A stretch of 64,000 nucleotides of DNA from Limonium bicolor (taxonomy: Eukaryota; Streptophyta; Magnoliopsida; Caryophyllales; Plumbaginaceae). Below are positions 1,688-61,793 of the stretch, one piece after another. How positions within the stretch are numbered: the first letter of the stretch is position 1; every line of letters begins with the position of its first letter. Location of the stretch: contig CM041780.1 in assembly GCA_023374045.1 (NCBI GenBank), positions 38,021,030 through 38,085,029 on the forward strand, written 5' to 3'. A program made the position numbers and the translations under genes. The notes under the pieces are model-generated. The model saw only the letters and a list, made by a program, of their open reading frames with translations. It was not told the origin of the DNA and did not search any database.

Positions 1688-1944
1688 GTCCGTAGCCACG
1701 AACCTAATGTCCGAGACCACGGACCCCAATTGAATTAAATGATTTCGAAAACAGAACAAAAATAAAAACGCAAACTTGAAAGGTCCGGGGCCACGGACAG
1801 GGTGTCCGTGGGCCCGAACATGTATTGACAGAAACCCTAACATTTGAAAAATTGAAAAATATAAAATCCCGCCACCGTCTGTGGGTGTCCGTGGTCACAG
1901 ACAACCCGTCCGTGGTCCCGGACAATGAGTTCGAGGTCACGGAC
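1688..1944. repeat. OGR dyad cluster, left LTR
   Basis: Eight or so imperfect palindromes of GTCCG...CGGAC type are packed into about 260 bp, most of them 16 bp long. Some arms have lost symmetry through C-to-T/G-to-A changes compared with the copy at 34665-34921. Confidence 0.75.
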
Positions 1945-2537: not shown

Positions 2538-2545
2538 CTTATATA
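2538..2545 (-). promoter_or_regulatory. TATA box in OGR 3' LTR
   Basis: The minus strand reads TATATAAG in a GC-poor setting about 510 bp from the LTR's 5' end. The other LTR has ATATAAGG at the corresponding place. Confidence 0.55.
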
Positions 2546-3057
2546 GACTTTCTTAAAGATAAAGAAAATCTAGTAAAAGTAAGATTTTTTGATATTTTAA
2601 TTAAATGACTCCCCAAAGAAATTTTGCTGTGAAATTTTAACCACATGTCAAGGATGGCAATTATGAATTTTCTGAAGTGGAATCTAATTTTTTAAATGTT
2701 GGAATATTTTTAAATTGAATTTCTCGTCAGATTCAATCAGAAATTGCTTGGAAATTATTGGAAATTCGAAAAATCAAAATTCCAACGCCATTATGCTTAG
2801 AATGTCATCCTCTATCATGGGTTAAAACATCAAAGCATTTCAAGCTGATTTGGGCATCTTTTGGAGGAGAGAGAAAGCCTATAGGAGGTCTCGGGAGCCT
2901 TAAGAATTACGAAAACGCCCCTGACAATGACGAAACTGCTCCTCATGCCCTGGAATGCGCCGAACGAGCCAGAATCTCTCATTACTCGATTAAATGCCCC
3001 TCACAACACCAAAACCTTGTAGACCCTAACCAGGGGGTCAAAATTTTGGGTATAACA

Positions 3058-6434: not shown

Positions 6435-6601
6435 GGTCCGGGACTTGGTCCGGACCCAAGGTCCCGGACCACCTCTGGAAATTATCTCGGCTTGTTTTTG
6501 GCATTGGTCCTGGACTTAAGTCCCGGACCAATTCCAGCATTCACTCTCGGCATGTTTTTATGGGTGGTCCGGGTACCTATACAAGGGCTAGGTCCCGGAC
6601 C
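6435..6601. repeat. Hairpin array in A1 (36, 24 and 36 bp)
   Basis: Hairpins lie at 6435-6470, 6506-6529 and 6566-6601. All have arms GGTCC(G/T)GG.../...CCCGGACC. The first has a 10-bp stem enclosing a loop that contains the perfect palindrome GGTCCGGACC. The second is exactly 12 bp shorter than the other two. Confidence 0.85.
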
Positions 6602-9600: not shown

Positions 9601-10049
9601 TGTAACACCCCTACCGGTAATCTCACCATTTCTCTTAACCCGTCTCCATTATCAATGCACCAGCAGCGGAAATTCTAATACAACCGGGGGTGAAACAATG
9701 CCGTTAGCCACTCGCGTGACTAACAAGGCTAATTCCAAACAACAATACAACACACTATCGGTCTGATGGGTCTTTACCGAGTACACTACACAAACGATGC
9801 TTCCTTTACTTAAACAATTCTCAAGTCAATACAACCTTTAACACCACAATGTACAATACAATAACCATTCAGTACTATACCGAGTATCTACAATTCCCAA
9901 GTTTATCGATGACCCTTCGGTCTTACAACCCACAATACATAAACAATTCCCTTAACAACTACCCATATCAATAACAACCCCGTCCTACTCTCGAATGGTG
10001 TCCGGCTTAGCTGACAGACTCTTACAGTGTTCATATTCACCTCGGGTAC

Positions 10050-10084
10050 CTGCACACTAAAAACGTTCCCCCTAGGGGGTCAGC
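10050..10084 (-). promoter_or_regulatory. Hairpin plus splice-acceptor-like site, A2 3' LTR
   Basis: On the minus strand GCTGACCCCCTAGGGGG is followed by AACGTTTTTAGTGTGCAG then GTACC. The pyrimidine tract is weaker than in A1. The right LTR has the same arrangement at 19528-19560. Confidence 0.4.
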
Positions 10085-11744
10085 TTACGCTGAATATGAC
10101 TTCCGCATACCCCGCGTACTAGTGAGGGTACGCCGACTAATTGGCCGAGAGCATGCAGTTCATTTTAGTTCAAACAACATGCAATACAACAATACATCAT
10201 ATATGTACATTCACATCACACTCCACATTCAATCCAGGAATACAATCCACACAGATATCACATCCAGCTTGTTAAGTTCAGCTATCTTATTCTTCAGCCT
10301 TGAGAGACCGTATCTCAAGTGAGTTTCACTCTCGTTAATTACCAACTTTCTATCTCCACCGGGTAGTTTACTTGACTCCTAGATCATTGGACACTCCCGG
10401 TCCCGATCTAGTTTCTTAATTATTCTACTCTTGAATTATATTAGGTGAAGCCTCAAAGGCCTCCGGGTAGAGGCATGTATAAGTCTCACCTCCGGGCTTT
10501 TATAATCTCAATACGGGATTAGAAACATTCTCTCATGTTCCCCTTTCCTATCCCATAATACCCAGCTTACCTCTTTAGACGGGCAAGCTCTTCCGGTCTT
10601 ACTCCAGTCGGGCACCACTATGTGGCACACAGCCCCGCAGGGCACCACTATGTGGCACACGGCCCGGTAACAAGGGAGTTCGACCACGGATTTGGAAACA
10701 TACGCTCTGTTGCTTCCTCTTCCTTGCACGCGTGACTCACAATCCCCCTAACCCAGCTCTCGGGTTAGTAACAATAGGTACTCATATATAAATACATATA
10801 TAAACATTAGTCAGCCGCATCTTTCTCGATGCTATCATACAACTTAGGAGATTTTCCCATCTCGTTGTATCTGCCGATTTTAAGGGTCGCCCCTACACCT
10901 CCGTTACTTAGGAACTATATTCGTTTTCTAACATTGAGTCACATCCTTGCATAGGAGGTCGACTATTGAAATTAAGGACGTTCACTAGCCTCGTGTGTCG
11001 CTTGTTCTCATTTTGAGTCAATTCTTAAGTTTGGTTTATCGTGTCCGTTGATTGATGGTTTTCGTGTGTTATCTCGTCTTGGTTCGATAGCTTAGTGGGT
11101 CTCCATGTTTTCGTTGATTCACAACCGGACTCCTTCTACGAGTCACTACTCAAACAAGACTCACTATGAGTAGCACTACAATACACATTCAACATTCAAC
11201 AATTCATTCATATTCACATTCCATGAATTATACAAACTTCTTTGCAAATTACAAACCAATCAAGCAACAATACTACACAAGCACCATCAAGTGCAAACAA
11301 TCCGATTCGTGCATTTATCTTGTTAGGTGATCACACAATCAAACAAGCACACAAATCGGGGTAACCAAGTTAGGATACAGAGCATGAGGAAATCATACCT
11401 TACACCATGGTTTTACTTTACCGGGTCGCCTTATGTCCCTTGGTTCACATTTGTTCCTCAAATCTTACTCTTGATTCACTGATAATATTTTAGACATCTC
11501 CATTAATTTAAAACACCACGGTATGTAGACTAGTACTCCCGTAATTAACCCCGTTAGCCCATTATTCTTTGGTTCACTTAAGTGTTCTTAATCTCACAAC
11601 TCTTCAATCACTCCTCAAACCTGTTTACACTTCTTAGGGCCATTAAAGTTCACCAAACAACTCCTAAACATCACCTAAAACCAATACCATTCAATTCCCC
11701 ATCATTAGCCACCTTTAAAACACATTCTGGTAAAATTTTAGCAT

Positions 11745-11912
11745 GGTCCGGGTCTACAAACCCGGACCAAGTCCGGAAATAAGTTTCTGCCTATTTTTAT
11801 GTGTGGTCCGGGTTTGTGTCTTGGTTTACAAACCCGGACCACCCCCTGAAATGAGTTTCTGTCCTGTTTTTGCTATGGTCCGGGTTTGCGTACCGATTTG
11901 CAAACCCGGACC
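11745..11912. repeat. Hairpin array, A2 3' LTR (24, 36, 36 bp)
   Basis: Hairpins at 11745-11768, 11805-11840 and 11877-11912, with arms GGTCCGGGT.../...ACCCGGACC. The third has a perfect 13-bp stem. The first is 12 bp shorter than its counterpart in the other LTR. Confidence 0.88.
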
Positions 11913-13515
11913 ACCTCTGGAACTGTCAAAATTTACAGTTTTCCACCAGTTTTCAACCCCTAATTCACCTCTAATCATTTCCTAACCTTTCTACATGTTT
12001 CCTACATGTTTAAATACCCTAAAACATGCTCTAAAACCTCTTCAAAACATTAGTTAAATTCACTACCCAATTCTTGCTCAATTTCCACAGTTTGCATCCT
12101 TACTGTAACAGGTTACTCACTTGTGCATTTCTAAATTCCTTCTTGCTTGTTTCAACCTCTTACCAACCTCACCAAGTCCATAAATGACCATTGTAATTCA
12201 TTCCTACATAAATGCACTTCTAAAACCCAAGTCCAACTCTCATTTCCAAAGTCTTGCACACTAGCTCATTTCCTAGTTTTTCTAAAACATTTCCATACTC
12301 CATTGCTACAGATTTTCACACTCTTCCCCCTAATTCTCTAAATGCCATTTCAAGGCTATCAATCCTCTCCTCTCAACACTACAAACACATAGGTCCTCCC
12401 ATCTCATAAGTCATCTTACAACACTCGTTTTTCTACTAAGATTTCGCCATAACCTCCTCATAATTCTAACATTCTCCAAACCATCAATTCACATCAATTT
12501 ACATTCCTAATCTAGCCACACCCACAAGGGGTCCTACCAGCACACAATATCAATCCCAAGCTCATCAAAATTCCATAAAACACAATATACAACAATAGCT
12601 CAAACTTTAAATACAATGGCACTTAGGCCTTAAATCCACACGAGTTCACAATCACCCTCAAATTAAATCAACTACATTAATTCACATTGTTTGGGTTCAT
12701 TATTTAAATTTAACCCATCCCAATTCCTAAAGCAATTAAAATAAACCTTAAGGTAGATTTCTTACCTTAATCCACAAGTTTCTCTTTTGAATTCTCCTCT
12801 TGCTCCTCCTCTCCTCCAAATCGGTCAAGTGGGAATAGAGTTCCCAAACTCCATCCCACATTCAAGTAACACAAGAAATGGATTCAATTAACCACTCAAG
12901 CCCTTAGGAAACTCTAAATCAAATTAAGGGCTTAAAACACAAGGTTAGGGTTTTACCTTTTGAATGTTCAAGAGGGCTTTCACCCATGAATCAAAGGGGA
13001 AACTCCACCACCATTGGAGAGTTGAATTGAAGATCAAAATCAAGAAGAAAACAAGGTGTGAGAGAGAGCCAAAATCGGCTACCAAGGGAGGAAGAGCAAA
13101 CATGAGTTTTTCAATGAAATTTTTACCTTAGAAGAAAGAGGAGACTCCAAGATACAAGATGATGTGCTTTTCTCTTCAAATGGGGAAAACCCATAAAAAT
13201 GAAACTCATCCTTTTCGAATTTTGGAAAGAGAGAAGTGTAGAGCTTGATGAGGGGAACACAAATATGTGTTTTGTTTTTGATTTGGAGCATTTATGTGGC
13301 TTGAGCATGGAAGAGAAGTTGGAGAAGCCATGGGTGTGGGTGGTGAGTTCATGAACGACAGCAACCAGAGGGAGAGAGGAGAAATCGGTGAGGAAGAAAG
13401 AAAGAGAGGAAATAGGAATAGGACAAAGAGAATGAGGACGAGAGAGGGAACAAGGTAGTTTTAGTACCTCTTTCTTTTCTTTCTTTCTTTCTTCCTAGCT
13501 TATTAGTGTGTGTGA

Positions 13516-13530
13516 GGGGGGGGGGGGGGG
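13516..13530. repeat. Poly-G run, A2 3' LTR
   Basis: 15 G residues; the other LTR has 17 G at 23014-23030. It sits between a CTTT-rich stretch and the taatatatta motif. Confidence 0.9.
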
Positions 13531-14084
13531 CTGTTTTAATATATTAAAACCGGCCCACTATTATTTACTGGCTGGAGCGTTTTTCTCTTTTACAGAAAAC
13601 GCTCGTTTATTTACCCGTTTTTGCATATTCACTAACCAGGCCCGTTTTCTGGAATTTTCTCATTCCTTTAATTTAATGGTTATTATACTCCCATAATGTT
13701 TATTTATAGTTATTTGATGAACTATACTTTTTTTACGGGTTCGTTTGACCACTTAAAATCAAGTTCTCGGGTTTTCTCGAAAAACGTGCGCTAAAGCTTT
13801 ATTAGCGTTTTTAATTCGTTTTATGGATCCGTTTTCTTCGGGAATTGTTCACATATATTATTTAGGAGCATTATTAAGCCTTTAAATTCATTTAGTCCCT
13901 ACCCTATTTAAGGTTGTATTTCTCCTAGGGTCGCTTAACGCTCGTTTTAGCATTTTTCGCTCTTTAAGCGTTTTTATCATTTCTTTTGGATTTATTCTTT
14001 TTACCAATATTCATTAGACACTAATAGGCCCTCAATATCGTATTAGAGTAATTTAATCACCCTAATTAAGTTTGGGGTATTTCA

Positions 14085-19076: not shown

Positions 19077-22000
19077 TGTAACACCCCTACCGGTAATCTC
19101 ACCATTTCTCTTAACCCGTCTCCATTATCAATACACCAGCAGCGGAAATTCTAATACAACCGGGGGTGAAACAATGCCGTTAGCCACTCGCGTGACTAAC
19201 AAGGCTAATTCCAAACAACAATACAACACACTATCGGTCTGATGGGTCTTTACCGAGTACACTACACAAACGATGCTTCCTTTACTTAAACAATTCTCAA
19301 GTCAATACAACCTTTAACACCACAATGTAGCTTAATACAATAACCATTCAGTTACTATATTCCAGTATCTACAATTCCCAGTTTATCGATGACCCTTCGT
19401 CTCAAACCACAATACATAAATACAATTCCCTTAACAACTAACCCATATCATAACAACCCCGTCCTACTCTCGAACGGTGGTCCGGCTTAGCTGAAACTCT
19501 TACAGTGTTCATATTCACCTTGGGTACCTGCACACTAAAACGTTCCCCCTAGGGGTCAGCTTACGCTGATATGACTTCGCATACCCCGCGTACTAGCGAG
19601 GGTAGCCGACTAATTGGTCGAGAGCATGCAGTTCATTTTAGTTCAAACAACATGGCAATACACATACATCATATATGTACATTCACATCACACTCCACAT
19701 TTCAATCCAGGAATACAATCCACACAGATATCACATCCTCCAGCTTGTTAAGTTCAGCTATCTTATTCTTCATCCTTGAGAGACCGTATCTCAGTGAGTT
19801 TCACTTTCGTTAATTACCAACTCTCTATCTCCCATCCCACGGGTAGTTTACTTGACTCCTAGATCATTGGACACTCCCAGTCCCGATCTAGTTTCTTAAT
19901 TATTCTACTCTGAATTCTATAGGTGAAGCCTCAAAGGCCCTCCGGGTAGAGGCATGTATAAGTCTCACCTCCGGGCTTTTATAATCTCAATACGGGATTA
20001 GAAATTCCTCATGTTCCCCTTTCCTAGCCTCCTAATACCCCCAGCTTTACCTCTTTAGACGGGCAAGCTCTGCCGGTCTTACTCCAGTCGGGCACCACTA
20101 TGTGGCACACGGCCCCGCAGGGCACCACTATGTTGCACACGTCCGGTACACAAGGATTTCGACCACGGATTCGGAAACATACGCTCTGTTGCTTCCTCTT
20201 CCTTGCACGCGTGACTCACAATCCCCCTAACCCAGCTCTCGGGTTAGTAACAATAGGTATTCATATATAAATACATATATAAACATTAGTCAGCCGCATC
20301 TTTCTTGATGCTATCATACAACTTAGGAGATTTTCCCATCTCGTTGTATCTGCCGATTTTAAGGGTCGCCCCTACACCTCCGTTACTTAGGAACTATATT
20401 CGTTTTCTAACATTGAGTCACATCCTTGCATAGGAGGTCGACTATTGAAATTAAGGACGTTCACTAGCCTCGTGTGTCACTTGTTCTCATTTTGAGTCAA
20501 TTCTTAAGTTTGGTTTATCGTGTCCGTTGATTGATGGTTTTCGTGTGTTATCTCGTCTTGGTTCGATTGCTTAGTGGGTCTCCATGTTTTCGTTGATTCA
20601 CAACCGGACTCCTTCTACGAGTCACTACTCAAACAAGACTCACTATGAGTAGCACTACAATACACATTCAACATTCAACAATTCATTCATATTCACATTC
20701 CATGAATTATACAAACTTCTTTGCAAATTACAAACCAATCAAGCAACAATACTACACAAGCACCATCAAATGCAAACAATCCGATTCGTGCATTTATCTT
20801 GTTAGGTGATCACACAATCAAACAAGCACACAAATCAGGGTAACCAAGTTAGGATACAGAGCATGAGGAAATCATACCTTACACCATGGTTTTACTTTAC
20901 CGGGTCGCCTTATGTCCCTTGGTTCACATTTGTTCCTCAAATCTTACTCTTGATTCACTGATAATATTTTAGACATCTCCATTAATTTAAAACACCACGG
21001 TATGTAGACTAGTACTCCCGTAATTAACCCCGTTAACCCATTATTCTTTGGTTCACTTAAGTGTTCTTAAACTCACAACTCTTCAATCACTCCTCAAACC
21101 TGTTTACACTTCTTAGGGCCATTAAAGGTCACCAAACAACTCCTAAACATCACCTAAAACCAATACCATTCAATTCCCCATCATTAGCCACCTTTAAAAC
21201 ACATTCTGGTAAAATTTTAGCATGGTCCGGGTTTGTGTCCGGGTCTACAAACCCGGACCAAGTCCGGAAATAAGTTTCTGCCTATTTTTATGTGTGGTCC
21301 GGGTTTGTGTCCGGGTTTACAAACCCGGACCACCCCCTGAAATGAGTTTCTGTCCTGTTTTTGCTATGGTCCGGGTTTGCGTACCGATTTGCAAACCCGG
21401 ACCACCTCTGGAACTGTCAAAATTTACAGTTTTCCACCAGTTTTCAACCCCTAATTCACCTCTAATCATTTCCTAACCTTTCCACATGTTTCCTACATGT
21501 TTAAATACCCTAAAACATGCTCTAAAACCTCTTCAAAACATTAGTTAAATTCACTACCCAAATCTTGCTCAATTTCCACAATTTGCATCCTTACTGTAAC
21601 AGGTTGCTCACTTGTGCATTTCTAAATTCCTTCTTGCTTGTTTCAACCTCTTACCAACCTCACCAAGTCCATAAATGACCATTGCAATTCATTCCTACAT
21701 AAATGCACTTCTAAAACCCAAGTCCAACTCTCATTTCCAAAGTCTTGCACACTAGCTCATTTCCTAGTTTTTCTAAAACATTTCCATACTCCATTGCTAC
21801 AGATTTTCACACTCTACCCCCTAATTCTCTAAATGCCCTTTCAAGGCTATCAATCCTCTCCTCTCAACACTACAAACACCTAGGTCCTCCCATCTCATAA
21901 GTCATCTTACAACACTCGTTTTTCTACTAAGATTTCGCCATAACCTCCCCATAATTCTAACATTCTCCAAACCATCAATTTACATCAATTTACATTCTTA

Positions 22001-23584
22001 ATCTAGCCACACCACAAGGGGTCCTACCAGCACACAATATCAATCCCAAGCTCATCAAAATTCCATAAAACACAATATACCACAATAGCTCAAACTTTAA
22101 ATACAATGGCACTTAGGCCTTAAATCCACACGAGTTCACAATCGCCCTCAAATTAAATCAACTACATTAATTCACATTGTTTGGGTTCATTATTTAAATT
22201 TAACCCATCCCAATTCCTAAAGCAATTAAAATAAACCTTAAGGTAGATTTCTTACCTTAATCCACAAGTTTCTCTTTTGAATTCTCCTCTTGCTCCTTCT
22301 CTCCTCCAAATCGGTCAAGTGGGATAGAGTTACCAAACTCCATCCCACATTCAAGTAACACAAGAAATGGATTCAATTAACCACTCAAGCCCTTAGGAAA
22401 CTCTAAATCAAATTAAGGGCTTAAAACACAAGGTTAGGGTTTTACCTTTTGAATGTTCAAGAGGGCTTTCACCCATGAATCAAAGGGGAAACTCCACCAC
22501 CATTGGAGAGTTGAATTGAAGCTCAAAATCAAGAAGAAAACAAGGTGTGAGAGAGAGCCAAAATTGGCTACCAAGGGAGGAAGAGCAAACATGAGTTTTT
22601 CAATGAAATTTTTACCTTAGAAGAAAGAGGAGACTCCAAGCTACAAGATGATGTGATTTTCTCTTCAAATGGGGAAAACCCATAAAAATGAAACTCATCC
22701 TTTTTGAATTTTGGAAAGAGAGAAGTGTAGAGCTTGATGAGGGGAACACACATATGTGTTTTGTTTTTGATTTGGAGCATTTATATGGCTTAAGCATGGA
22801 AGAGAAGTTGGAGAAGCCATGGGTGTGGGTGGTGAGTTCATGAACGACAGCAACCAGAGGGAGAGAGGATAAATCGGTGAGGAAGAAAGAAAGAGAGGAA
22901 AGAGAAGAGGGAAAAAGAAGAAATGGAGGAGAGAGAGGGAAAAAGGTAGTTTAGTACCCTTTTGCTTTTTCTTTTCTTTCTTTTTTTTCTTCCTTGATTA
23001 TTAGTGTGTGTGAGGGGGGGGGGGGGGGGGCTGTTTTAATATATTAAAACCGGCCCACTATGTATGTACTGGCTGGAGCGTTTTTCGTCTTTTACAGAAA
23101 ACGCTCGTTTATTTACCCGGTTTTACACTATTCACTAACCAGGCCCGTTTTCTGGAATTTTCTCATTCCTTTAATTTTAATGGTTATTATACTCCCATTA
23201 ATGTTTATTTGAAGTTATTTGATGAACTATATTTTTTTTACGGGTTCGTTTGACCACTTAAAATCACGTTCTCGGGTTTTCTCGAAAAACGTGCGCTAAA
23301 GCTTTATTAGCGTTTTTAATTCGTTTTATGGATCCGTTTTCTTCGGGAATTGTTCACATATATTATTTTAGGCATTATTAAGCCTTTAAATTCATTTAGT
23401 ACCCTATTTAAGGTTGTATTTCTCCTAGGGTCGCTTAACGCTCGTTTTAGCGTTTTTCGCTCTTTAAACGTTTTTATCATTTCTTTTGGATTTATTCTTT
23501 TTACCAAAATTCATTAGACACTAATAGGCCCTCAATATCGTATTAGAGTAATTTAATCACCGTAATTAAGTTTGGGGTATTTCA
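19077..23584 (-). repeat. A2 5' LTR (4508 bp)
   Basis: Partner of 9601-14084, joined to the PBS by ctttt. The stretch 19321-20170 carries a dense cluster of single-base indels against its partner, while the following 2.5 kb differs very little. Confidence 0.93.
21224..21403. repeat. Hairpin array, A2 5' LTR (36, 36, 36 bp)
   Basis: Hairpins at 21224-21259, 21296-21331 and 21368-21403, spaced exactly 72 bp. All have perfect 13-bp stems (GGTCCGGGTTTG(T/C)) and 10-nt loops. The spacers are also 36 bp and mutually similar (ctgaaatgagtttctg...), so the unit is 72 bp. Confidence 0.9.
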
Positions 23585-23648
23585 GCATAGGCGCAGACGG
23601 ATCTCAAATCGGAGCTGAAACGAACATTTTAGAAGAAAACCAGTTTTC

Positions 23649-23990
23649 GTCCGGACCAGTGTGGTCCGGACGGTGGTTCGGACAGTTTAAAAACCCGTCT
23701 GTGGCATGACCGGGTAAATAAGGCCGGACAAGGGTGTGTCCGTAGCGCGTCCGCGGATAAAAGGGCGGACAAAAACGCACCGTCCGAACCAAACTGGTCC
23801 GGACAGTGGTTCGGACGCGACAAAATGAAGGACCGTGTTACGTCCGTGGAATTAAGGCAGGACGCAAAGCAAGGGACAACATGTCCGTGGAAAAATGGGC
23901 GGACAAGGGACAAGCATGTCCGTGGAATTATGGCCGGACAGAGGACAGACAGAGAATAAAAGCCATGCTGTCCGTGGATAAATGACCGGA
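23649..23990. repeat. GTCCG/CGGAC hairpin cluster, ATH 5' LTR
   Basis: Two strong hairpins (23649-23683, 23782-23816; 35 bp from GTCCG to CGGAC) have about 10-bp stems and a loop holding the palindrome GTCCGGAC. They are followed by shorter modules of 22 or 33 bp such as GTCCGTGG...GGCGGAC. The cluster ends about 200 bp upstream of the TATA box. Confidence 0.8.
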
Positions 23991-24200
23991 CGAAAACAAG
24001 GACACGTCTAAATGCAACCCAGATCCAGAATAATTGACGCGCCAACCGTCTTCCCCGTTTTTCTTGCGGCGCCTGCAAACATATCTACGGCGCCTGCAAA
24101 CATATCTATCTACCCATTAGCCATATCAGGCGCCACCCCACTGCACTCCTTAAATTCCTCAAGCATTGTCGCAGCCTGTCTTCTTCCTCCTCCTTTCTTC

Positions 24201-24207
24201 TATAAAA
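24201..24207 (+). promoter_or_regulatory. TATA box, ATH 5' LTR
   Basis: TATAAAA follows a pyrimidine-rich stretch (cttcctcctcctttcttc), a typical plant core promoter. Repeated at 28472-28478 in the other LTR. Confidence 0.7.
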
Positions 24208-25485
24208 CCCACGCTCCTTCTGCTCAAATAAATCATCCCTTCCTGAATCCAAAGTTCACCACCGTTCATCAAGCCACGACCATCGACCACAACACAAACC
24301 ACACCTACGATCCATTCCATCTTCTTATCCCCCACTTCTCCATTTTATTTTTATTCTTCATTCCACCACTCAGCAGAAGCACGATAAGAAGATGAGAAGA
24401 GAAGGAGCTGGAGCAGAAGCGAGTCGCAGTCCCGTCTCCTCCAGCAGTCTCCAAAATAATGGCTATCTCTGCTTTCTTTTTATTTCTGTTAATGTCTGAG
24501 TAATTTTTATTCGTATCCTAGGATGGGGTTTTACCCCAAATAATTCAGACTTATTTATAATACCAAATTTGCTTATAAATATTTGTTCTGTCTCTCTAAA
24601 TTATTAAATGCTTAAGAACTGATCATTTTTATGCATTTACGGTTTCTCTTATTTCAATGATTTTGTAAATCTGAGAATAGACCACAAAGAGAGACAAACG
24701 TTAGATATTATCTCCTTGATTAGCAGATAAATTCCATCGCTGTTATTAAAATATTTCTTGTTTAATGCTAATTAACGATTTTAGACTTTTTCTGATTGTA
24801 AAAAGTCTAATGAATTAATTAAGAGTTGTCCTTATCTATTATTTAGGAAGGCCACAAGATAAATTCTTAAACAGACAAATAGAGCAAATTAGGATTATAA
24901 TTAATGTCTGTACTTAAATCAATATTTATCACCTGTTTCACTTATTAAACTTGTTTTAATTCCTTTCAACAAATACTGTTAAATGCTTTACGCGACAAAC
25001 TACTGCATTTTTACGGTAACTATCAACATATGATTTTGAGATAGTCAAAGTACCACAAAGGAATAAACCTTGGTATTTACACTCCGGATTAAGCAGGAAA
25101 ATACTGAGGCTATTACTAAGAGTTCGTAACTGACACTTATTAACTCTAATAGACAATAAATAATTGAGACATGGTTATAAATTTGTTTAAGTAATTTAGG
25201 CAATTCCCCGCTATCCTAGGATACCTTTTTCCATCCATTCAATACACTACAGTTTTATTTAAGCTTTTAATTATTTTTATTCTCCCAACACCAAGATTGC
25301 CACCGGTTAAACCCCCTTTTTATAATTTATGCACTTTTATTTATCTTCTTGTACATTTACTAACTTGATAATTAATTAGATAGTTGCGAAGTCTCTGTGG
25401 ATACGACCTTGTTGTACTACAATGATTGGGTTCACTGCTCATAAGTAGCAAGATAGTTTAACTACTATTTTGCCCACCAAGTTTT

Positions 25486-27684: not shown

Positions 27685-27931
27685 TGATAAGTGTCCAAAT
27701 GAGCATGTTTTATGGGTGTATTTCATATATTATATTAACACTTTTCTTGCTCATTTCTCTACTTTGGTTAGTTTTCCTCTAGTTTATGTTTTATTGGTTA
27801 TCTTACAGATTTATTGGTTAAACATGAGGAAAACCAAGCTAGGAGCAAAGTAGACGAAGAGACGAACGCATAGGCGTAGACGGATCTCAAATCGAAGCTG
27901 AAACGAACATTTTAGAAGAAAACCAGTTTTC

Positions 27932-28262
27932 GTCCAGACCAGTGTGGTCCGGACAGTTTAAAAACCCGTCCGTGGCATGACCGGGTAAATAAGGCCGTAC
28001 AAGGGTGTGTCCGTAGCGCGTCCGCGGATAAAAGGGCGGACAAAAACGCACCGTCCGAACCACACTGGTCCAGACAGTGGTTCGGACGCGACAAAATGAA
28101 GGACCGTGTTACGTCCGTGGAATTAAGGCAGGACACAAAGCAAGGGACAACATGTCCGTGGAAAAATGGGCAGACAAGGGACAAGCATGTCCGTGGAATT
28201 ATGGCCGGACAGAGGACGGACAGAGAATAAATGCCATGCTGTCCGTGGATAAATGACCGGAC
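27932..28262. repeat. GTCCG/CGGAC hairpin cluster, ATH 3' LTR
   Basis: Counterpart of 23649-23990. The first hairpin (27932-27954) is 23 bp instead of 35, a clean 12-bp difference. The second (28053-28087) is 35 bp. Confidence 0.8.
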
Positions 28263-28471
28263 AGAAACAAGGACACATCTAAATGCAACCCAGATCTAGA
28301 ATAATTGACGCGCCGACCGTCTTCCCCGTTTTTCTTGCGGCGCCTGCAAACATATCTACGGCGCCTGCAAACATATCTATCTACCCATCAGCCATATCAG
28401 GCGCCGCCCCACTGCACTCCTTAAATTCCTCACGCGTTGTCGCAGCCTGTCTTCTTCCTCCTCCTTTCTTC

Positions 28472-28478
28472 TATAAAA
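28472..28478 (+). promoter_or_regulatory. TATA box, ATH 3' LTR
   Basis: TATAAAA in the same context as 24201-24207. Confidence 0.7.
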
Positions 28479-29755
28479 CCCACGCTCCTTCCGCTCAAAT
28501 AAATCATCCCTTCCTGAATCCAAAGTTCACCACCGTTCATCAAACCACGACCATCGACCACAACACAAACCACACCTACGATCCATTCCATCTTCTTATC
28601 CCCCACTTCTCCATTTTATTTTTATTCTTCATTCCACCACTCAGCAGAAGCACGATAAGAAGAAGAGAAGAGAAGGAGCTGGAGCAGAAGCGAGTCGCAG
28701 TCCCGTCTCCTCCAACAGTCTCCAAAATAATGGCTATCTCTGCTTTCTTTTTATTTCTGTTAATGTTTGAGTAATTTTTATTCGTATCCTAGGATGGGGT
28801 TTTACCCCAAATAATTCAGACTTATTTATAATACCAAGTTTGCTTATAAATATTTGTTCTGTCTCTCTAAATTATTAAATGCTTAAGAACTAATCATTTT
28901 TATGCATTTACGGTTTCTCTTATTTCAATGATTTTGTAAATCTGAGAATAGACCACAAAGAGAGACAAACGTTAGATATTATCTCCTTGATTAGCAGATA
29001 AAATCCATCACTGTTATTAAAAGAATTCTTGTTTAATGCTAATTAATGATTTTAGACTTTTTCTGATTGTAAAAAGTCTAATGAATTAATTAAGAGTTGT
29101 CCTTATCTATGATTTAGGAAGGCCACAAGATAAATTCTTAAACAGACAAATAGAGCAAATTAGGATTATAATTAATGTCTGTACTTAAATCAATATTTAT
29201 CACCTGTCTCACTTATTAAACTTGTTTTAATTCCTTTAAACAAATATTGTTAAATGCTTTACGCGACAAACTACTGCATTTTTATGGTAACTATCAACAT
29301 ATGATTTTGAGATAGTCAAAGTACCACAAAGGAATAAACCTTGGTATTTACACTCCGGATTGAGCAGGAAAATACTGAGGCTATTACTAAGAGTTCGTAA
29401 CTAACACTTATTAACTCTAATAGACAATAAATAATTGAGACATGGTTATAAATTTGTTTAAGTAATTTAAGCAATTCCCCCGCTATCCTAGGATACCTTT
29501 TTCCATCCATTCAATACACTACAGTTTTATTTAAGCTTTTAATTATTTTTATTCTCCCAACACCAAGATTGCCACCGGCTAAACCCCTTTTTATAATTTA
29601 TGCACTTTTATTTATCTTCTTGTACATTTACTAACTTGATAATTAATTAGATAGTTGTGAAGTCTCTGTGGATACGACCTTGTTGTACTACAATGATTGG
29701 GTTCACTGCTCATAAGTAGCAAGATTGTTTAACTACTATTTTGCCCACCAAGCAT

Positions 29756-31856: not shown

Positions 31857-31859
31857 ATC

Positions 31860-34229: not shown

Positions 34230-34664
34230 GTCTGCGAGCCTCGATTTTAAACCCTATCCTATGTTTATTAAAGTTGATTGGGATCTAATCGGGTTTTAGG
34301 TCCGCTTATAACCTAAGATTAATAACTATGTCATAAAACAATAATTATTAAAACCTAAGCTAGCTCACTGGAACCTATTATGAGTCGCCACCTAATTTTA
34401 ACCTAGATCAAATTAGGAAAGGAGAGTTCGGGTTCGGGGGCTTGGTATTCGACTTATTTAGGGTTCAAATTACTTTCATTACCCTTCCTAGGTCATTTTT
34501 CCTCTACTTGGTTTATTTACGGCTTTCTACAAAGTTGTTTTTAACCTAGGGGCGCGCTTCTGTTTTTTTTGTTTTTTTAGTGTTTTTTGACAGAAAATTA
34601 AAGTGAAATTAAAAGCTACCCAAACTAGGGTTTCGGAGGCAGAATTAGGTCAAATTTTTATTAC

Positions 34665-34921
34665 GTCCGTAGCCACGGACCTAATGTCCGAGACCACGGA
34701 CCCCAATTGAATTAAATGATTTCGAAAACAGTTAAAAAATAAAAACGCAAACTTGAAAGGTCCGGGGCCACAGACAGGGTGTCCGTGGGCCCGAACATGT
34801 ATTGACAGAAACCCTAAAATTTGAAAAATTGAAAAATATAAAATCCCGCCACCGTCCGTGGGTGTCCGTGGTCATGGACAACCCGTCCGTGGTCCCGGAC
34901 AATGAGTCCGAGGTCACGGAC
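34665..34921. repeat. OGR dyad cluster, right LTR
   Basis: 16-bp near-palindromes start at 34665, 34686, 34760, 34781, 34864, 34885 and 34906. The last three are exactly 21 bp apart. The best is GTCCGAGGTCACGGAC. The cluster lies 600-850 bp downstream of the TATA box, so it should be transcribed. Confidence 0.8.
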
Positions 34922-35512
34922 AACCCACAGACAGTGGGTTTTTGATGATTCCCGAAGGTGTTTTGAGCTCAAATTTTATGGGTGTGTAGCCTGAAAGATT
35001 ATAAACACGTTAGTAATTGAAAGAACTCAATTTGAAGTCAAAATTAATACGAAACTTAGCAAACAAGTAACAAGGCAGTAGCTAAAACAATTAGCGATAC
35101 AGAAGCGAAAAAGAGTTAGTTTGAGCCCAAATTTTGAGGCAAGACAGATAATATCGTGGAGAATTGGGAAAGTGGAATTTCTACCTGTTTTACCTTCGGG
35201 TTCACAATGATTCTTCACACCGGGATTCGTTGAGTGCTCCGTTGATGGCAGAACCGAAAGGTTTTCGAACTAAGCTTCTGGTTGTTGGTTGTTCTTGCTG
35301 TTCTTCATGTTTTGGTGGTGTTTTTGTGGGGTATTGATGATTATTGGTGCCTTGGGGATTGGAAAACGAGTTTAGATGGTGATTTCGGGGGATTTTTGGT
35401 ATGATTCGGGTGGCCAGGTGTTGGAAAACGTGAGAGAGAGAGAAGGTTGTTCTTTCTGACTCCCTAGGGTTCTTGAGCTTGTGAGATTCTGATTTGATCA
35501 AAAAACCTATCC

Positions 35513-35520
35513 CCTTATAT
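35513..35520 (-). promoter_or_regulatory. TATA box in OGR 5' LTR
   Basis: The minus strand reads ATATAAGG, at the same LTR position as the TATATAAG of the partner LTR. Transcription would run leftward through the dyad cluster at 34665-34921 and then gag. Confidence 0.5.
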
Positions 35521-36038
35521 TGACTTTCTTAAAGATAAAGAAAATCTAGTAAAAGTAAGATTTTTTGATATTTTAATTAAATGACTTCCCAAAGGAATTT
35601 CGCTGTGAAATTTTAACCACATGTCAAGATGGCAATTATGAATTTTCTGAAGTGGAATCGAATTTTTTAAATGTTGGAATATTTTTAAATTGAATTTCTC
35701 GTCAGATTCAGTCAGAAATTGCTAGAAAATTATTGGAAATTCGAAAAATCAAAATTCCAACGCCATTATGCTTAAAATGTCATCCTTTATCATGGGTTAA
35801 AATATCAAAGCATTTCAAGCTGATTTGGGCATCTTTTGGAGGAGAGAGAAAGCCTATAGGAGGTCTCAGGAGCCTTAAGAATTACGAAAACGTCCCTGAC
35901 AATGACGAAACTGCTCCTCATGTGCTGGAATGCGCCGAACGAGCCAGAATCTCTCATTACTCGATTAAATGCCCCTCACAACACCAAAACCTTGTAGACC
36001 CTAACCAGGGGGGTCAAAATTTTGGGTATAACACAACC

Positions 36039-40532: not shown

Positions 40533-40713
40533 GGTCCGGGACTTGGTCCTTGGATAAAGTCCCGGACCAGCACCAAAAACCTGCCGAGAATCTGTTTCAG
40601 AGGTGGTCCGGGACCTAGGCTAGGTGCAACGACCCGGACCACCCTATAAAATGAAGCTTAGAGTGATCAGACACATTGGTCCGGGACCTTAGGTCCGGAC
40701 CATGTCCCGGACC
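40533..40713. repeat. Hairpin array in A3 (36, 36, 36 bp)
   Basis: Hairpins at 40533-40568, 40605-40640 and 40678-40713, with arms GGTCCGGGAC.../...(G)(T/A)CCCGGACC. The first has a 12-bp stem. The third has a 10-bp stem and the palindrome GGTCCGGACC in its loop. Confidence 0.88.
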
Positions 40714-50668: not shown

Positions 50669-53439
50669 TGTAACGACCCCAAAACCACCCTGGTTGAGAG
50701 ACCGTTACACGCCGCGCGCTTATTACCTAAGACACGCAAGGCTACACTATCGAAACCCCAAAATAGAACTAATGCTCATATATTACCAAATAAAAGATTA
50801 CAACATGTCTATACAATACACAGGCGGAAGCCAGACTGAAATACAAAGCATAATCTAATTACAACTGGGCACCAAGGCCAAACAAGCTGAATACAAAACT
50901 CAAATGCCAAGACAAAAAGTTGAAACTGAATCTCCAAGCACGAACTAAAACCTGCAAATCAGACGGAGATAGGGGTGAGCAAAACTATTGCTCAGCAGGT
51001 GATAAACTTCATCAGCTGAGCATGCTCAAAACAGATACTGAACATACATATTTATACATATACAAAAGCGCTTAGCCAGAGCAAAATCAGAGATAAAGCG
51101 GAAGTCTTTCAAGTAGACAGAAGTCTAAAACACCAGGAGCTAAGCGGTGGTCAAAACATACACTTAATAGCATAAGGTAAACTGAAGCTGAAAGCTTGAC
51201 GAAATCAGAAGCTTAACAAACTCAAAAAGCTTAAACACAATCAGAAGCTTAGCAAAATTAGAAGCTTAGCAAAATCCAGAACTTAGCAGGAGACAGTAAG
51301 CACACAGCAGACCGTCTCAAATCAAATACAGATAGAGAGCAGACGAAACAGAGCGTTTATAAAGCAGAAATACCCAGCAGACAGAAAGCACACAACAGTC
51401 CGTCGACGTTTGGAAACAGACAGAGCATACAGAAACAGATCACTTAGTAAACCAGAGGCTTTCAGAAGACAGAAAGCACATAGCAGTCTGTCAGAAATCA
51501 GAAACAGATAGAGCTAACAAAAACAGAACTCTTAACAATCAGAAGTGGGACACTAGCACCAAGCATAGCACTCAGAAAGGGTCGAAGACCCATAGATCTA
51601 ACAGATCCCTCGACAACGCAGAAATGACCCGAAGGCCAAAGGGTTCGTCAACTCCACAGAACAGATTGGGCATGACCCACACTCAGAATGACGTCTACAT
51701 GGTATACCACAGAATAGCTCGACCCAGCCATTCACGGCTCAGAAATAAAGTAACTAGGTCCCAAAATAGAGGCTTAATCCAAACAGATCGAAGCTTAATA
51801 CAGAGCAGAGCGGAAGTCTTAACCAGGTCAGAACAGAAAGCGAAAGCTTAGCAAAATCAGAGAAGGAGCTTACCAACGGAAAGCCTTAGCAAAACAGAAG
51901 TCGAACCCGACTAGTAAATACGAAAGCAAAACTGAAGTCAAAGATTGGATCACATTTCCAGAGCAAATTAGGAATCAAAGGCTTATCAGAGACCCCAAAA
52001 TCTGGAAACACTTAAACACATGCCAAAACACATGAAAACAGATAGCACTCGGAAAGAGGAATCCAACGCCGCAAACGGCACTCAAAACGGAGCTCAGACG
52101 AAGAAGTTATGGTCAAATCAGAGAGGTGTCCGAACTTGTGTCCGGACGTCGAAGTTCGGACACAGGTCGAGACTCAGAAACCAGAGATTGTCAAATGTCC
52201 GAACTTGTGTCCGGACATCAAGGTTCGGACACAAGTCGAGATGAAAACAGATAGGGAATTTCAGAGTGTCCGAACATCGAAGCTCGGACCGATGTTCGGA
52301 CGGGTTCCACGGGAAAAAGTTACGCGGAGTGTCCGAACATCAATGTTCGGACTGATGTTCGGACATACCCCGAGTTTGAAAATACAAAAGCTCAAAACAT
52401 GCTGTCCGAACTTAGAAGTTAGGACAGATGTTCGGACAGCACGAAATCAGAAGAACAGAGGCTACGAACAGATCAGAAAAATTATCCAAACTTCACCAAA
52501 CCTTGCCAAAGAATTACCCACACCAAATCAGACATAAATACAGGAAAACCACGAGGTTTTAGCCACTCAAAAACGCAAACACACTGCATTAAATCTCACA
52601 CACAAATCAATGAACAATCCTTATAAATCCCAAATCAGCGGCACTCAGAAATCACAAAACAGAGGGAGATTTACAGATGCAGATTCACCATCGTTAAAGC
52701 AATACTTACATAACCAAAATACGCGAATCAAAACACTACCCACGGGGTTTTAACGCATTAGAAACGTAAATCAGAAATCACCCAAATCATCACAAATCAG
52801 AGTCAAATAAATATATGCGGAAACATTGACCGAAACCCCCGTGGGTGAACACACACAACTGAATCCATCTACCACCTACCTCACATCCGTAGCTATGCCA
52901 TCTCTGCGGACTCTACGAATCGCCTTCCCGAATCTCCAGTCAAATGATAATCCCTCGAATTGAACCGCTCCCAAAATACAAAATCAGAATTAGAAAAGAG
53001 AAGAGGAAGCCTTAATGGAGAAGAGAACCAATCTACAATCCAACCTGATTGACGACCGACGGACGAACACAATTCCATCTATAGACCTCCAGCGATTACA
53101 ATTGAAAGAAATTGAAGAAGAGGATGAGCAAAGGGATGAGGGTTTGAGAGCGATGAAACTGTCGTGCATAGATGTCAGGAAAGTGGAAGGAGAGAAATAA
53201 CGTGAATAGGAGTAGGAAGAGAGAAGGGAAATAAATTATAGAATTAAGAAGTCCCTTCCCTAACAAATAAATAAATAAATGATAGAAGCATGCTATTTCT
53301 AATTCTCCTTCCTCCAGCTATGACAATAATATTTAAGGAATGCCATAAACTCTCTAGTATAAGGTACAAATTAATCCGAACTCCCTTTGCGAATCAGAAG
53401 GAATATGATAAAATAAAAAAAAAATTCTGGGGCATAACA
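50669..53439 (-). repeat. B1 3' LTR (2771 bp)
   Basis: Contains five hairpins (52127-52438) and an acceptor-like site (minus GTCTGATTTGCAG then GTTTTAG, AG at 50952-50953). This is preceded by a 7-bp stem GCTCAGC/GCTGAGC at 50990-51021. A TATA-like tataattta on the minus strand lies near 53231-53240. Confidence 0.92.
52127..52438. repeat. Hairpin array, B1 3' LTR (five modules of 36 bp)
   Basis: Hairpins at 52127-52162, 52196-52231, 52267-52302, 52330-52365 and 52403-52438, spaced 63-73 bp. Arms are TGTCCGAAC.../...GTTCGGAC. The first has stem TGTCCGAACTT/AAGTTCGGACA and a loop holding GTCCGGAC, a perfect palindrome; the third and fourth have 11- and 12-bp stems. A 142-codon ORF through the array is incidental. 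Confidence 0.9.
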
Positions 53440-54272: not shown

Positions 54273-57031
54273 TGTAACGACCCCAAAACCACCCTGGTTG
54301 AGAGACCGTTACACGCCGCGCGCTTATTACCTAAGACACGCAAGGCTACACTATCGAAACCCCAAAATAGAACTAATGCTCATATATTACCAAATAAAAG
54401 ATTACAACATGTCTTTATAATACACAGGCGGAAGCCAGACTGAAATACAAAGCATAATCTAATTACAACTGGGCACCAAGGCCAAACAAGCTGAATACAA
54501 AACTCAAATGCCAAGACAAAAAGTTGAAACTGAATCTCCAAGCACGAACTAAAACCTACAAATCAGACGGAGATAGGGGTGAGCAAAACTATTGCTCAGC
54601 AGATGATAAACTTCATCAGCTGAGCATGCTCAAAACAGATACTGAACATACATATTTATACATATACAAAAGCGCTTAGCCAGAGCAAAATCAGAGATAA
54701 AGCGGAAGTCTTTCAAATAGACAGAAGTCTAAAACCCAGGAGCTAAGCGGTGGTCAAAACATACACTTAATAGCATAAGGTAAACTGAAGCTGAAAGCTT
54801 GATGAAATCAGAAGCTTAACAAACTCAAAAAGCTTAAACACAATCAGAAGCTTAGCAAAATCAGAAGCTTAGCAAAATTCAGAACTTAGCAGAAGACAGT
54901 AAGCACACAGCAGACCGTCTCAAATCAAATACAGATAGAGAGCAGACGAAACAGAGCGCTTATAAAGCAGAAATACCCAGCAGACAGAAAGCACACAGCA
55001 GTCCGTCGATCTTTGGAAACAGACAGAGCAGACAGAAACAAATCACTTAGTAAACTAGAGGCTTTCAGAAGACAGAAAGCACATAGCAGTCTGTCAGAAA
55101 TCAGAAACAGATAGAGCTAACAGAAAACAGAACTCTTAACAATCAGAAGTGGGACACTAGCACCAACCATAGCACTCAGAAAGGGTCGAAGACCCATGGA
55201 TCTAACAGATCCCTCGACAACGTAGAAATGACCCGAAGGCCAAAGGGTTCGTCAACCCCACAGAACAGATTGGGCATGACCCACACTCAGAATGACGTCT
55301 ACATGGTATACCATGGAATAGCTCGACCCAGCCATTCACGGCTCAGAAACAAAGTAACTAGGTCCCAAAATAGAGGCTTAATCCAAACAGATCGAAGCTT
55401 AATACAGAGCAGAGCGGAAGTCTTAACCAGGTCAGAACAGAAAGCAAAAGCTTAGCAAAATCAGAGAAGGAGCTTACCAACGGAAAGCCTTAGCGAAACA
55501 GAAGTCGAACCCGACTAGTAAATACGAAAGCAAAACTGAAGTCAAAGATTGTATCACATTTCCAGAGCAAATTAGGAATCAAAGGCTTATCAGAGACCCC
55601 AAAATCAGGAAACACATAAACACATGCCAAAACACATGAAAACAGATAGCACTCCGAAAGAGGAATCCAATGCCGCAAACGACACTCAAAATGGAGCTCA
55701 GATGAAGAAGTTATGGTCAAATCAGAGAGGTGTCCGAACTTGTGTCCGGACGTCGAAGTTCGGACACAGGTCGAGACTCAGAAACCAGAGATTGTCAAAT
55801 GTCCGAACTTGTGTCCGGACATCAAGGTTCGGACACAAGTCAAGATGAAAACAGATAGGGAATTTCAGAGTGTCCGAACATCGAAGCTCGGACCGATGTT
55901 CGGACGGGTTCCACGGGAAAAAGTTACGCGGAGTGTCCGAACATCAATGTTCGGACATACCCCGAGTTTGAAAATACAAAAGCTCAAAACATGCTGTCCG
56001 AACTTAGAAGTTAGGACAGATGTTCGGACAGCACGAAATCAGAAGAACAGAGGCTACGAACAGATCAGAAAAATTATCCAAACTTCACCAAACCTTGCCA
56101 AAGAATTACCCACACCAAATCAGACATAAATACAGGAAAACCACGAGGTTTTAGCCACTCAAAAACGCAAACACACTGCATTAAATCTCACACACAAATC
56201 AATGAACAATCATTATAAATCCCAAATCAGCGGCACTCAGAAATCACAAAACAGAGGGAGATTTACAGATGTAGATTCACCATCGTTAAAGCAATACTTA
56301 CATAACCAAAATACGCGAATCAAAACACTACCCACGGGGTTTTAACGCATTAGAAACGTAAATCAGAAATCACCCAAATCATCACAAATCAGAGTCAAAT
56401 AAACATATGCGGAAACATTGACCGAAACCCCCGTGGGTGAACACACACAACTGAATCCATCTACCACCTACCTCACATCCGTAGCTAAGGCATCTCTGCG
56501 GACTCTACGAATCGCCTTCCCGAATCTCCAGTCAAATGATAATCCCTCGAATTGAACCGCTCCCGAAATACAAAATCAGAATTAGAAAAGAGAAGTGGAA
56601 GCCTTAATGGAGAAGAGAACCAATCTACAATCCAACCTGATTGACGACGGACGGACGAACACAATTCCATCTATAGACCTCCAGCGATTACAATTGAAAG
56701 AAATTGAAGAAGAGGATGAGCAAAGGGATGAGGGTTTGAGAGCGATGAAACTGTCATGGATAGATGTCAGGAAAGTGGAAGGAGAGAAATAACGTGAATA
56801 GGAGTAGGAAGAGAGAAGGGAAATAAATTATAGAATTAAGAAGTCCCTTCCCTAACAAATAAATAAATAAATGATAGAAGCATGCTATTTCTAATTCTCC
56901 TTCCTCCAGCTATGACAATAATATTTAAGGAATGTCATAAACTCTCTAGTATAAGGTACAAATTAATCCGAACTCCCTTTGCGAATCAGAAGGAATATGA
57001 TAAAATAAAAAAAAAATTCTGGGGCATAACA
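54273..57031 (-). repeat. B1 5' LTR (2759 bp)
   Basis: Partner of 50669-53439. The main length difference is the 12 bp missing from the fourth hairpin (55934-55957). Confidence 0.92.
55731..56030. repeat. Hairpin array, B1 5' LTR (36, 36, 36, 24, 36 bp)
   Basis: Hairpins at 55731-55766, 55800-55835, 55871-55906, 55934-55957 and 55995-56030. The fourth lacks 12 bp between direct repeats atgttcggac. Confidence 0.9.
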
Positions 57032-60509: not shown

Positions 60510-60545
60510 TGTCCGAACTTCTGTCCGAGCTTTGAAGTTCGGACA
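60510..60545. repeat. Single 36-bp hairpin in B2 LTR
   Basis: Arms TGTCCGAACTT/AAGTTCGGACA enclose ctgtccgagctttg. Same length and arms as the first B1 hairpin, but the loop palindrome is changed (GTCCGAGC). Confidence 0.85.
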
Positions 60546-61214: not shown

Positions 61215-61793
61215 ATGCCTCCTCGTAGGACACCAGTGACCCCTCAGGGAGATGCTGCAGATGCAGTGCAGCAGTTTGTGACGCAGTTGATGCAGACGAT
61301 GGCTGCAGCTGCTGGGGGAGCTGGTGGAGGAGCTGGTGGTGCAGGCCCAGCAGGGGCGAATGCAGTGGGAGGCCGAGTCCGAGCACTCCAGGAGTTCATG
61401 AAGCTAAAGCCGCCTTCCTTCGACGGCTGTGGCGACCCTCAGGAGGCGAGCCATTGGATTACTGAGGTCGAGGACCTGCTGAGAGTGATGGGGTCGGAGG
61501 ACGACCAGAAGGTGGACTTCGCCACGTTCCTCTTTAAGGGGGAGGCGAAGGAGTGGTGGCGCATGGTGATGGGTAGGCATCCCCAGCCTTGGACCTGGGA
61601 TCAGTTCTGCGTAGAGTTCAACAAGCAGTTCTATCCGGACGTCTACAAGGACCAGAAAATCAATGAGTACAACCGGCTGCGTCAGGGGAGAGATATGACC
61701 GTAGAGGAGTACGTGAGGAAGTTTGTGACCCTTCGAAGTATGCTCCGGAGCCAGATGAGCACAGGAAGGCTCGTAAGTTTGAGAGCGTATTGA
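61215..61793 (+). pseudogene. gag: B2 gag (capsid), frameshifted
   Basis: Forms the virus-like particle around the element's RNA. It starts at the first ATG after the PBS, with MPPRRTPV, typical of plant gypsy gag. Residues 31-50 are Gly/Ala-rich low complexity. From about residue 62 the retrotransposon gag domain is clear: FMKLKPPSFDG, HWITEVEDLL, FKGEAKEWW, WDQFCVEFNKQFYPD, and EYVRKFVTL near residue 165-173. About residue 173 (61729-61733) the frame is lost: the expected continuation is read one frame over, consistent with a one-base deletion. The protein then ends after about 20 unrelated residues at 61793. It could be a real mutation or a sequencing error. Confidence 0.85.

Follow-up and report, generated by a model that had tools for sequence, protein, structure and literature searches.

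Inverted GTCCG/CGGAC dyads at fixed spans recur in the long terminal repeats of several retrotransposon lineages in Limonium bicolor

Why should long terminal repeats (LTRs) that seem to belong to different retrotransposon families contain the same short inverted motif at the same few distances? The question is raised by a 64,000-nucleotide stretch of the Limonium bicolor genome (assembly GCA_023374045.1, contig CM041780.1, positions 38,021,030 to 38,085,029; hereafter the window), in which LTR elements are nested, and in particular by B1, an element resembling large retrotransposon derivatives (LARD-like). The low-end LTR of B1 (50669..53439, minus strand; the 3' LTR in element sense) contains at 52128..52437 an array of five GTCCG...CGGAC hairpins, located at 52128, 52197, 52268, 52331 and 52404, each of which spans 34 bp when measured, as are all spans below, from the start of GTCCG to the end of CGGAC. 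An inner 22-bp pair is present in four of the five. A preliminary description of this DNA, which added one flanking base on each side, had given these lengths as 36 and 24 bp, in agreement with ours, and had proposed that LTRs of unrelated families share a module of such fixed-length hairpins.

The spaced dyads are real, genome-wide and non-random. In the complete 2.92-Gb assembly, which has eight large chromosomes and is the scope of all genome-wide counts given here (location within LTRs was established for the arrays of the window), there are 243,734 GTCCG...CGGAC pairs at span 34 and 172,829 at span 22, against 386 and 225 for a control with the letters reversed. The corresponding numbers are 30,995 (control 388) at span 33 and 1,404 (control 530) at span 30, and composition predicts about 1,196 pairs per span, as calculated from how often the pentamers occur in a placed sample of 208 kb. 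This sample combines 16 loci of 10 kb, set at fixed coordinates, with 16 loci of 3 kb, which were chosen by hand from a random list so as to spread across the chromosomes. In the 16 loci of 10 kb, GTCCG ranks first among all 1,024 pentamers in convergent pairing at spans of 10-44 (79 pairs versus 2.76 expected); divergent GTCCG pairs number 22 over the same spans (2.76 expected), and no one divergent span has more than 7. Of these 16 loci, 9 have at least one convergent pair with a span of no more than 69. Among all 32 placed loci, 11 contain a pair at span 14, 16, 22, 26 or 34, and 7 a pair at span 22, 23, 33, 34 or 35. Furthermore, when 160 kb were scanned for inverted repeats without regard to motif (stem of at least 9, GC of at least 40%), GTCCG was present in 34 of the 80 repeats found, and three dinucleotide shuffles of the same 160 kb gave 8, 12 and 6 repeats, none of them with GTCCG. 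Neither composition nor confinement to this locus, the two ways in which the preliminary description envisaged that its proposal could fail, thus explains the dyads, and the shared, length-restricted architecture in several LTR lineages is found far above chance.

Within the window, the spans are restricted in every family: 22 and 34 bp in families A, B and C, 22, 23 and 35 bp in an Athila-like element, and 16 and 37 bp in an Ogre-like element. The partner LTR of B1 (54273..57031, minus strand; the 5' LTR in element sense, 97.9% identical) has four 34-bp dyads and a fifth that is shortened to 22 bp (55732..56029). The two LTRs of element A2 (9601..14084 and, 5' in element sense, 19077..23584; minus strand, 96.2% identical) contain one 22-bp and two 34-bp dyads in the low-end copy (11746..11911) and three 34-bp hairpins with a 72-bp period in the high-end copy (21225..21402). 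Partial copies of A are also present, with arrays at 6436..6600 (A1) and at 40534..40712, where three 34-bp dyads with a period of 72-73 bp include the position 40678 that had been attributed to A3. Counting both LTR copies of an array, full A and B arrays in the window have three to five 34-bp dyads; among the genome-wide span-34 matches listed, one array has up to seven (C1 613361-613816). Element C, a coding element with a B-related LTR close to the right end of the window, has a single 34-bp hairpin (60511..60544) with its stem extended outward. The first LTR of the Athila-like element is interrupted by the A2 insertion; the part to the right of it (5' LTR, 23585..25481, plus strand) contains an array at 23649..23991 with stemmed dyads of 35/23 bp at 23649 and 23782 and stemless 22-bp dyads at 23749, 23883, 23918 and 23970, and the 3' LTR (27868..29752, plus strand) has its copy of the array at 27947..28262. 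Finally, the Ogre-like LTRs (1254..3057 and, 5' in element sense, 34232..36033; minus strand) contain 16-bp dyads in 21-bp tandem steps at 1688..1944 and 34665..34921. The lengths given earlier for the Athila-like (35/23 bp) and Ogre-like (16 bp) dyads are those of the window sequence; the 35/23 bp ascribed to an element A4, for which the description gives no coordinates, found no match, no A-type array in the window having the equivalent 33/21 bp. The statement that the hairpins are the most GC-rich spots of their LTRs holds for B1 and for the Athila-like and Ogre-like elements, but not for A2, where another stretch of the LTR is richer.

How many lineages do these elements represent? Judged by their primer-binding sites (PBSs), A2 (PBS at 19060), B1 (54256) and the Ogre-like element (34213) lie on the minus strand, and the Athila-like element (25485) and C (61089) on the plus strand, as does the A-family copy with the array at 40534..40712 (42414). 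We take the sites at 19060, 54256 and 42414 to be of the iMet type and that at 34213 to be of the Arg type; these tRNA types, as well as the clade labels of the elements, including the Athila label attached to the site at 25485, are tentative. No tRNA genes were found in the 64-kb window. Because the LTR ends of A and B are alike and the primer-site word is identical in A, B and C, we count these three families as what is probably a single lineage, from which the Athila-like and Ogre-like elements are separate. Protein domains are present in two of the elements: the gag open reading frame (ORF) of C (61215..61793, plus strand) encodes a Ty3-type capsid (Pfam Retrotrans_gag, 1.3e-18, and Ty3_capsid, 5e-10, on 61170-61790), and a domain search placed a G-patch domain in the internal region of the Ogre-like element (31404-31859). 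The families were rightly called unrelated as far as the Athila-like and Ogre-like elements are concerned, the latter without the 22/34 spans, but not with regard to A, B and C.

Sharing of this kind might be the result of sequence exchange: recombination or template switching would have carried one ancestral array from lineage to lineage, with divergence afterwards. Consistent with this, B1 and C can be aligned across the array region (73%), parts of A and C also align, and A and B have their LTR ends and primer word in common. Within the lineage of A, B and C, common descent thus explains the sharing. Across lineages, the Athila-like element has the pentamer and 22/34-type spans in common with A and B, and the Ogre-like element the pentamer only; they differ in arm sequences, in inner spans and in the period of the units (about 72, 21 and 41 bp), and we consider exchange improbable. 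The horizontal spread of a module, which had been suggested earlier, is not needed either, since the arm sequences next to the common pentamer differ between lineages.

The spacing provides a further clue. In the 160 kb, same-direction copies of GTCCG show a short-distance peak at 12 bp (24, versus 6 at 11 bp). The array unit gives rise to another maximum at 69-73 bp, with 49 pairs, 15 of them at 73 bp. Because neighbouring same-direction half-sites are mostly 12 bp apart, the spans form ladders of 8/20, 14/26 and 22/34. The unit period is about 63-74 bp in A and B, 21 bp in the Ogre-like element and about 41 bp in locus L019. In element sense, the third half-site lies to the left and right of the dyad in 18 and 19 cases in B, and in 3 and 4 in the Athila-like element; its occurrence on both sides alike in B is as predicted for a double-stranded target. 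Dyads also exist without stems. Thus, among the span-22 matches listed, 8 of the 25 distinct dyads are of a GTCCGC...GCGGAC class; outside the letters that define the class, 8 of 32 positions pair, as expected by chance. The Athila-like dyads at 23749, 23918 and 23970 are stemless and span exactly 22 bp, and of the 32 stemless pairs in the placed sample and window, 7 have a span of 22 bp and 5 a span of 26 bp, the two commonest values. Separately, arrays of span 14/26 (GTCCGGATCCGGAC, GTCCGTATACGGAC) were seen in loci L009 (1489-2109), L019 (2423-5312, in steps of about 41 bp), L012 and L021 (7656-7862); in blastn, those of L009 and L019 did not match any of the reference LTRs from the window.

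What could make use of such an array? Docking on double-stranded DNA is the simplest account, because the pentamer is invariant, the spacing is exact and the dyads persist without stems. We therefore put forward, at about even odds, the view that the arrays are cis-regulatory repeats of the LTR on which a sequence-specific protein that binds double-stranded DNA docks as an oligomer in steps of 12 bp. The clusters of inverted half-sites at fixed spans, probably situated in U3, would form the cis-regulatory array; a 22-bp dyad with a third half-site 12 bp outward would make up the 34-bp form, with 8/20 and 14/26 bp as further versions and 16 bp in the Ogre-like element. The most likely reader would be one putative DNA-binding protein, encoded by the host or by a transposon, and the separate lineages would have kept, or converged on, its half-site. 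No particular candidate for this reader is claimed here, and the literature searched on the LOB domain, TCCGGA and DNA affinity purification sequencing (DAP-seq) gave no match. The more specific view that a single factor, from the host or from one of these retrotransposons, recognises inverted GTCCG half-sites arranged in a 12-bp lattice and that the LTR lineages converged on this exact geometry appears to us possible but doubtful. Short-motif arrays in non-coding transposon DNA are known to be read by the VANC anti-silencing proteins of VANDAL elements; the likeness lies in the short repeated motif, but VANDALs are DNA transposons and the reader in the present case is putative.

Where in the elements do the arrays lie? 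For the six arrays to which a primer site could be assigned, the position is inside the LTR, 436-2,331 bp upstream of the PBS; the C hairpin lies 545-578 bp upstream of its own. In the Athila-like element and B1, the best TATA match lies downstream of the array and the array coincides with a CpG peak, and the TATA matches of these two elements suggest that the arrays are located in U3.

How can such arrays change? One route becomes visible when both LTRs of a single element are compared. Alignment of the four LTR pairs in the window revealed 48 insertions or deletions (indels), of which three are 12 bp long, one each in A2, the Athila-like element and B1, i.e. in all three pairs with 22/34-type arrays. 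All three are within dyads, none of the other indels reaches 8 bp, and the Ogre-like pair has no 12-bp change. In A2 the arm at 21225-21236 is absent from the partner LTR at 11746, and in B1 the arm at 52343..52354 is missing from the counterpart of the 52331 dyad at 55935-55956; in both cases the indel interconverts a 34-bp and a 22-bp dyad. In the Athila-like element the segment 23667..23678 is missing from the partner LTR. Five further alignments (L061/L062, L063/L064, the L011 pair, L001/L003 and L020) showed no 12-bp change; three of them are clean array pairs, L001/L003 and L020 being less clean, and only the L011 pair evidently represents two LTRs of one element. Gain and loss of arms is thus recurrent but not universal, and generates part of the span ladder. 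Under the docking model, arrays would grow and shrink through such single 12-bp changes and through duplication of the unit, which in families A and B measures about 72 bp.

The same changes could also arise without any reader. The dyads might be a mutational by-product, made and kept because reverse transcription or replication slips on hairpin templates and corrects one arm by the other, and amplified along with the elements. The restriction of the 12-bp changes to dyads fits this explanation, as does the agreement of arms beyond the family consensus described below, and transposon amplification accounts for the high copy number. However, it leaves unexplained why the same pentamer and spans occur with different arms and why stemless dyads are found at exactly 22 bp, and the five further alignments lack the 12-bp change. 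We consider it unlikely.

The arms themselves carry a second signal. In A and B, the dyads are extended by complementary arms into stems of 10-12 bp, and among 74 distinct hairpins the two arms agree at 463 of the compared positions (-2, -1 and 6-12), versus 410 +/- 9 after permutation within families, with none of 3,000 permutations as high; most of the signal comes from positions 9, 11 and -2. The hairpin set includes 72 of the 100 span-34 matches listed, and the 22-bp dyads discussed above come from 58 of the 100 span-22 matches listed, repeats and near-repeats having been left out by eye. Rows L002, L004 and L008, which overlap L001, L003 and L007, were dropped as well. For B alone, oriented and within arrays, there are 262 arm matches versus 247 +/- 3.9 (again 0 of 3,000 as high). 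In all families together, within arrays and under strict de-duplication, the excess is not significant (351 versus 345 +/- 4.3); de-duplication thresholds were 3 or 4 mismatches, and this test was also performed without L001, L003 and L005, which are represented by genome-wide span-34 rows. Orientation was assigned by blastn to the window LTRs, the matches including the arrays themselves, and the family of L051 and the strand of the 6436 copy were set by hand. When eight A-family arrays are aligned, 90.1% of the cells pair, as compared with 81.0% after shuffling, and the covariation score is 0.224 versus 0.095; further pair types show no excess (15 versus 16.6 in shuffles), and most double changes trace to a single subfamily split and therefore represent few events. 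The pentamers are nearly invariant in an A-family alignment whose mean column identity is 69%. Since the arms covary, docking requires an added layer, which would consist of selection for symmetry or of hairpin-templated correction from arm to arm.

Complementary arms also raise the possibility that the structure acts as RNA, LTR transcripts folding into hairpins that are processed to small interfering RNAs or function as such, as has been proposed for the palindromes of maize Sireviruses. The array in the partner LTR of B1 (55732..56029) folds far beyond its shuffles, with a z of -10.6 as RNA and -13.2 as DNA, and span-34 dyads are almost all stemmed. On the other hand, 57 oriented hairpins contain 18 G.U and 20 A.C mismatches and thus no sense-strand excess of G.U, which speaks against selection on the sense RNA because a selected RNA should tolerate G.U more than A.C. 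Moreover, a loop does not require a fixed 24-bp gap, stemless dyads occur, and a stem of 10-14 bp makes a short Dicer substrate. Rfam families gave no matches in the window at gathering score. Small RNAs are reported to be attracted by palindrome clusters of maize Sireviruses (Bousios 2016, as cited in the available text of PMC10760457), but maize Ty3/RLG elements are described there as generally having no obvious structure peak. Altogether, an RNA or small-RNA role seems to us quite improbable.

A particular form of this idea, suggested by the preliminary description, is that of retroviral kissing loops. The self-complementary word GTCCGGAC is present as described there, at 6448, 23649, 23664, 23797, 40693, 52140 and 52209, in some hairpins as the loop, and GTCCGGAC-N4-GTCCG occurs 12,935 times genome-wide on both strands (control 13). 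In retroviruses, dimer initiation signals are stems closed by a self-complementary loop and are found in the transcribed 5' leader, close to the PBS and gag. The likeness of stem and loop is confined here to a minority of copies, as only 8 hairpins out of 40 distinct ones with a 34-bp span have the palindromic loop, and GTCCGGAC stands at the start or end of 17 of 80 arms. Relative to the PBS, the arrays lie 0.4-2.3 kb upstream, inside the LTR and not between PBS and gag, and they show no wobble bias. Given the loop frequency, the array position, the wobble test and the stemless dyads, the kissing-loop and RNA-level readings were set aside, the former as highly improbable. Going by titles and the opening lines of abstracts, no paper among those listed for GTCCGGAC alone deals with plant LTRs.

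Several observations weigh against the view that the arrays are protein-docking sites. Firstly, a plain array of half-sites predicts no covariation of arms at non-conserved positions such as 9, 11 and -2, and the conservation of the pentamer in A is partly ascertained, because the A-family loci were found via the motif. Secondly, the third half-site is found mainly on one side in A (2 left, 8 right and 3 undecided). Thirdly, the stemless GTCCGC...GCGGAC dyads come from unclassified places, and several of the stemless 22-bp pairs in the placed sample and window are the inner portions of 34-bp dyads. In the same material, 17 span-34 dyads are stemmed and 2 are stemless, so that the stem may matter for the 34-bp form. 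The support for a U3 location is likewise uneven: the best TATA match of A2 is upstream of the array (10.9 bits, versus 10.8 for a downstream match), that of the 40534 copy falls within the array, and no TATA match was found in the Ogre-like and C LTRs. Lastly, the five further alignments without a 12-bp change count here as well.

Are such arrays already known? The preliminary description knew of none, which was too sweeping. In several plants, the LTRs of Sireviruses (Ty1/copia) contain clustered palindromic CGG-CCG boxes, CG-rich and upstream of the TATA, that form CpG islands (Bousios et al. 2010, PMC2829016, available text). Several of the 13 RM boxes of that study have CGGAC/GTCCG halves (HOPIE CGGACCGTCCG, Usier GTCGGACGTCCGAC, OPIE-2 CACCGGACTGTCCGGTG); they are 10-20 bp long, occur in at least 8 copies per element, and the study describes them as confined to Sireviruses and lacking in the classic retrotransposons it included. 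Palindromic boxes clustered in the LTR are what we also find, and counted over two LTRs (the published count being for an element with one) there are nine 34-bp dyads in B1, five in A2 and none in the Athila-like element. The order, however, is CGG...CCG in RM boxes and CCG...CGG here, as seen in the excess of convergent over divergent pairs; their length contrasts with the 22/34-bp spans and third site at 12 bp; and their hosts are Ty1/copia, whereas here a Ty3-type gag lies beside the C hairpin, a G-patch domain in the Ogre-like element, and the third lineage has Athila-like features; the primer-site words, with their tentative labels, also tell against a Sirevirus host. The placement in U3, upstream of TATA and on CpG islands, fits the Athila-like element and B1, is ambiguous in A2 and the 40534 copy, and lacks a TATA match in the Ogre-like and C LTRs. 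Also comparable is the maize palindrome CACCGGACNNNGTCCGGTG, the commonest in structured regions of Copia (42.9%) and also in Helitrons (Martin et al. 2023, PMC10760457, available text): the same half-site is found in unrelated transposon classes of one genome, with predicted hairpins, but in divergent order and as a short dyad. In sugar beet, a 50-bp palindromic motif flanking the BvMSat05 minisatellite (PMC2820488, available text) has a convergent GTCCG...CGGAC dyad with complementary arms; its span is 25 by our own count, different from 22/34, and the text seen places it beside a minisatellite and assigns it to no LTR. Related are a review of LTR structure (PMC3601003) and a study of nesting into palindromes (PMC6911290), both seen in part. 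In the literature searched, which was seen in part and left out most subscription papers, there was no account of convergent dyads with a fixed span in the LTRs of Ty3-type, Athila-like or Ogre-like elements. As far as these texts go, palindromic LTR boxes are thus known, and convergent fixed-span dyads in Ty3-type, Athila-like and Ogre-like LTRs appear to be new.

Some other repeats were encountered. A GTCCG...CGGAC pair of span 30 lies immediately downstream of the C gag ORF (61807-61836), and near-identical copies of it make up many of the span-30 matches listed, so that the genome-wide span-30 count is partly composed of such repeats. The inverted-repeat scan also yielded stems of the GACCG/CGGTC or CCGCC type, and not GTCCG, in the window (46290-46324) and in loci L018 (2121-2145), L010 (7328-7365) and L021 (1894-1950, 8105-8139 and 8234-8257); a CCG/CGG core related to that of the dyads may thus be in use in further families. 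Locus L023 (3620-4167) contains dense inverted repeats of the CGGGTC/CGGGTGA type, a separate GC-rich array, and L058 (2090-3000, placed sample) a tandem repeat with units about 90% identical, apparently a satellite.

What, then, would these dyads mean for the retrotransposons of L. bicolor? About 240,000 fixed pairs at span 34 and 170,000 at span 22, in several LTR lineages, are a strong and testable sign, as read from sequence, that these retrotransposons may share one regulatory factor, and they give an exact spacing code for binding assays. The finding would extend palindromic LTR boxes beyond Sireviruses to Ty3-type, Athila-like and Ogre-like elements. If a single factor does read the 12-bp lattice, its docking sites, serving activation or anti-silencing, would number in the hundreds of thousands, and the occurrence of this half-site in Sireviruses of grasses and in Helitrons of maize would then indicate a conserved plant factor.

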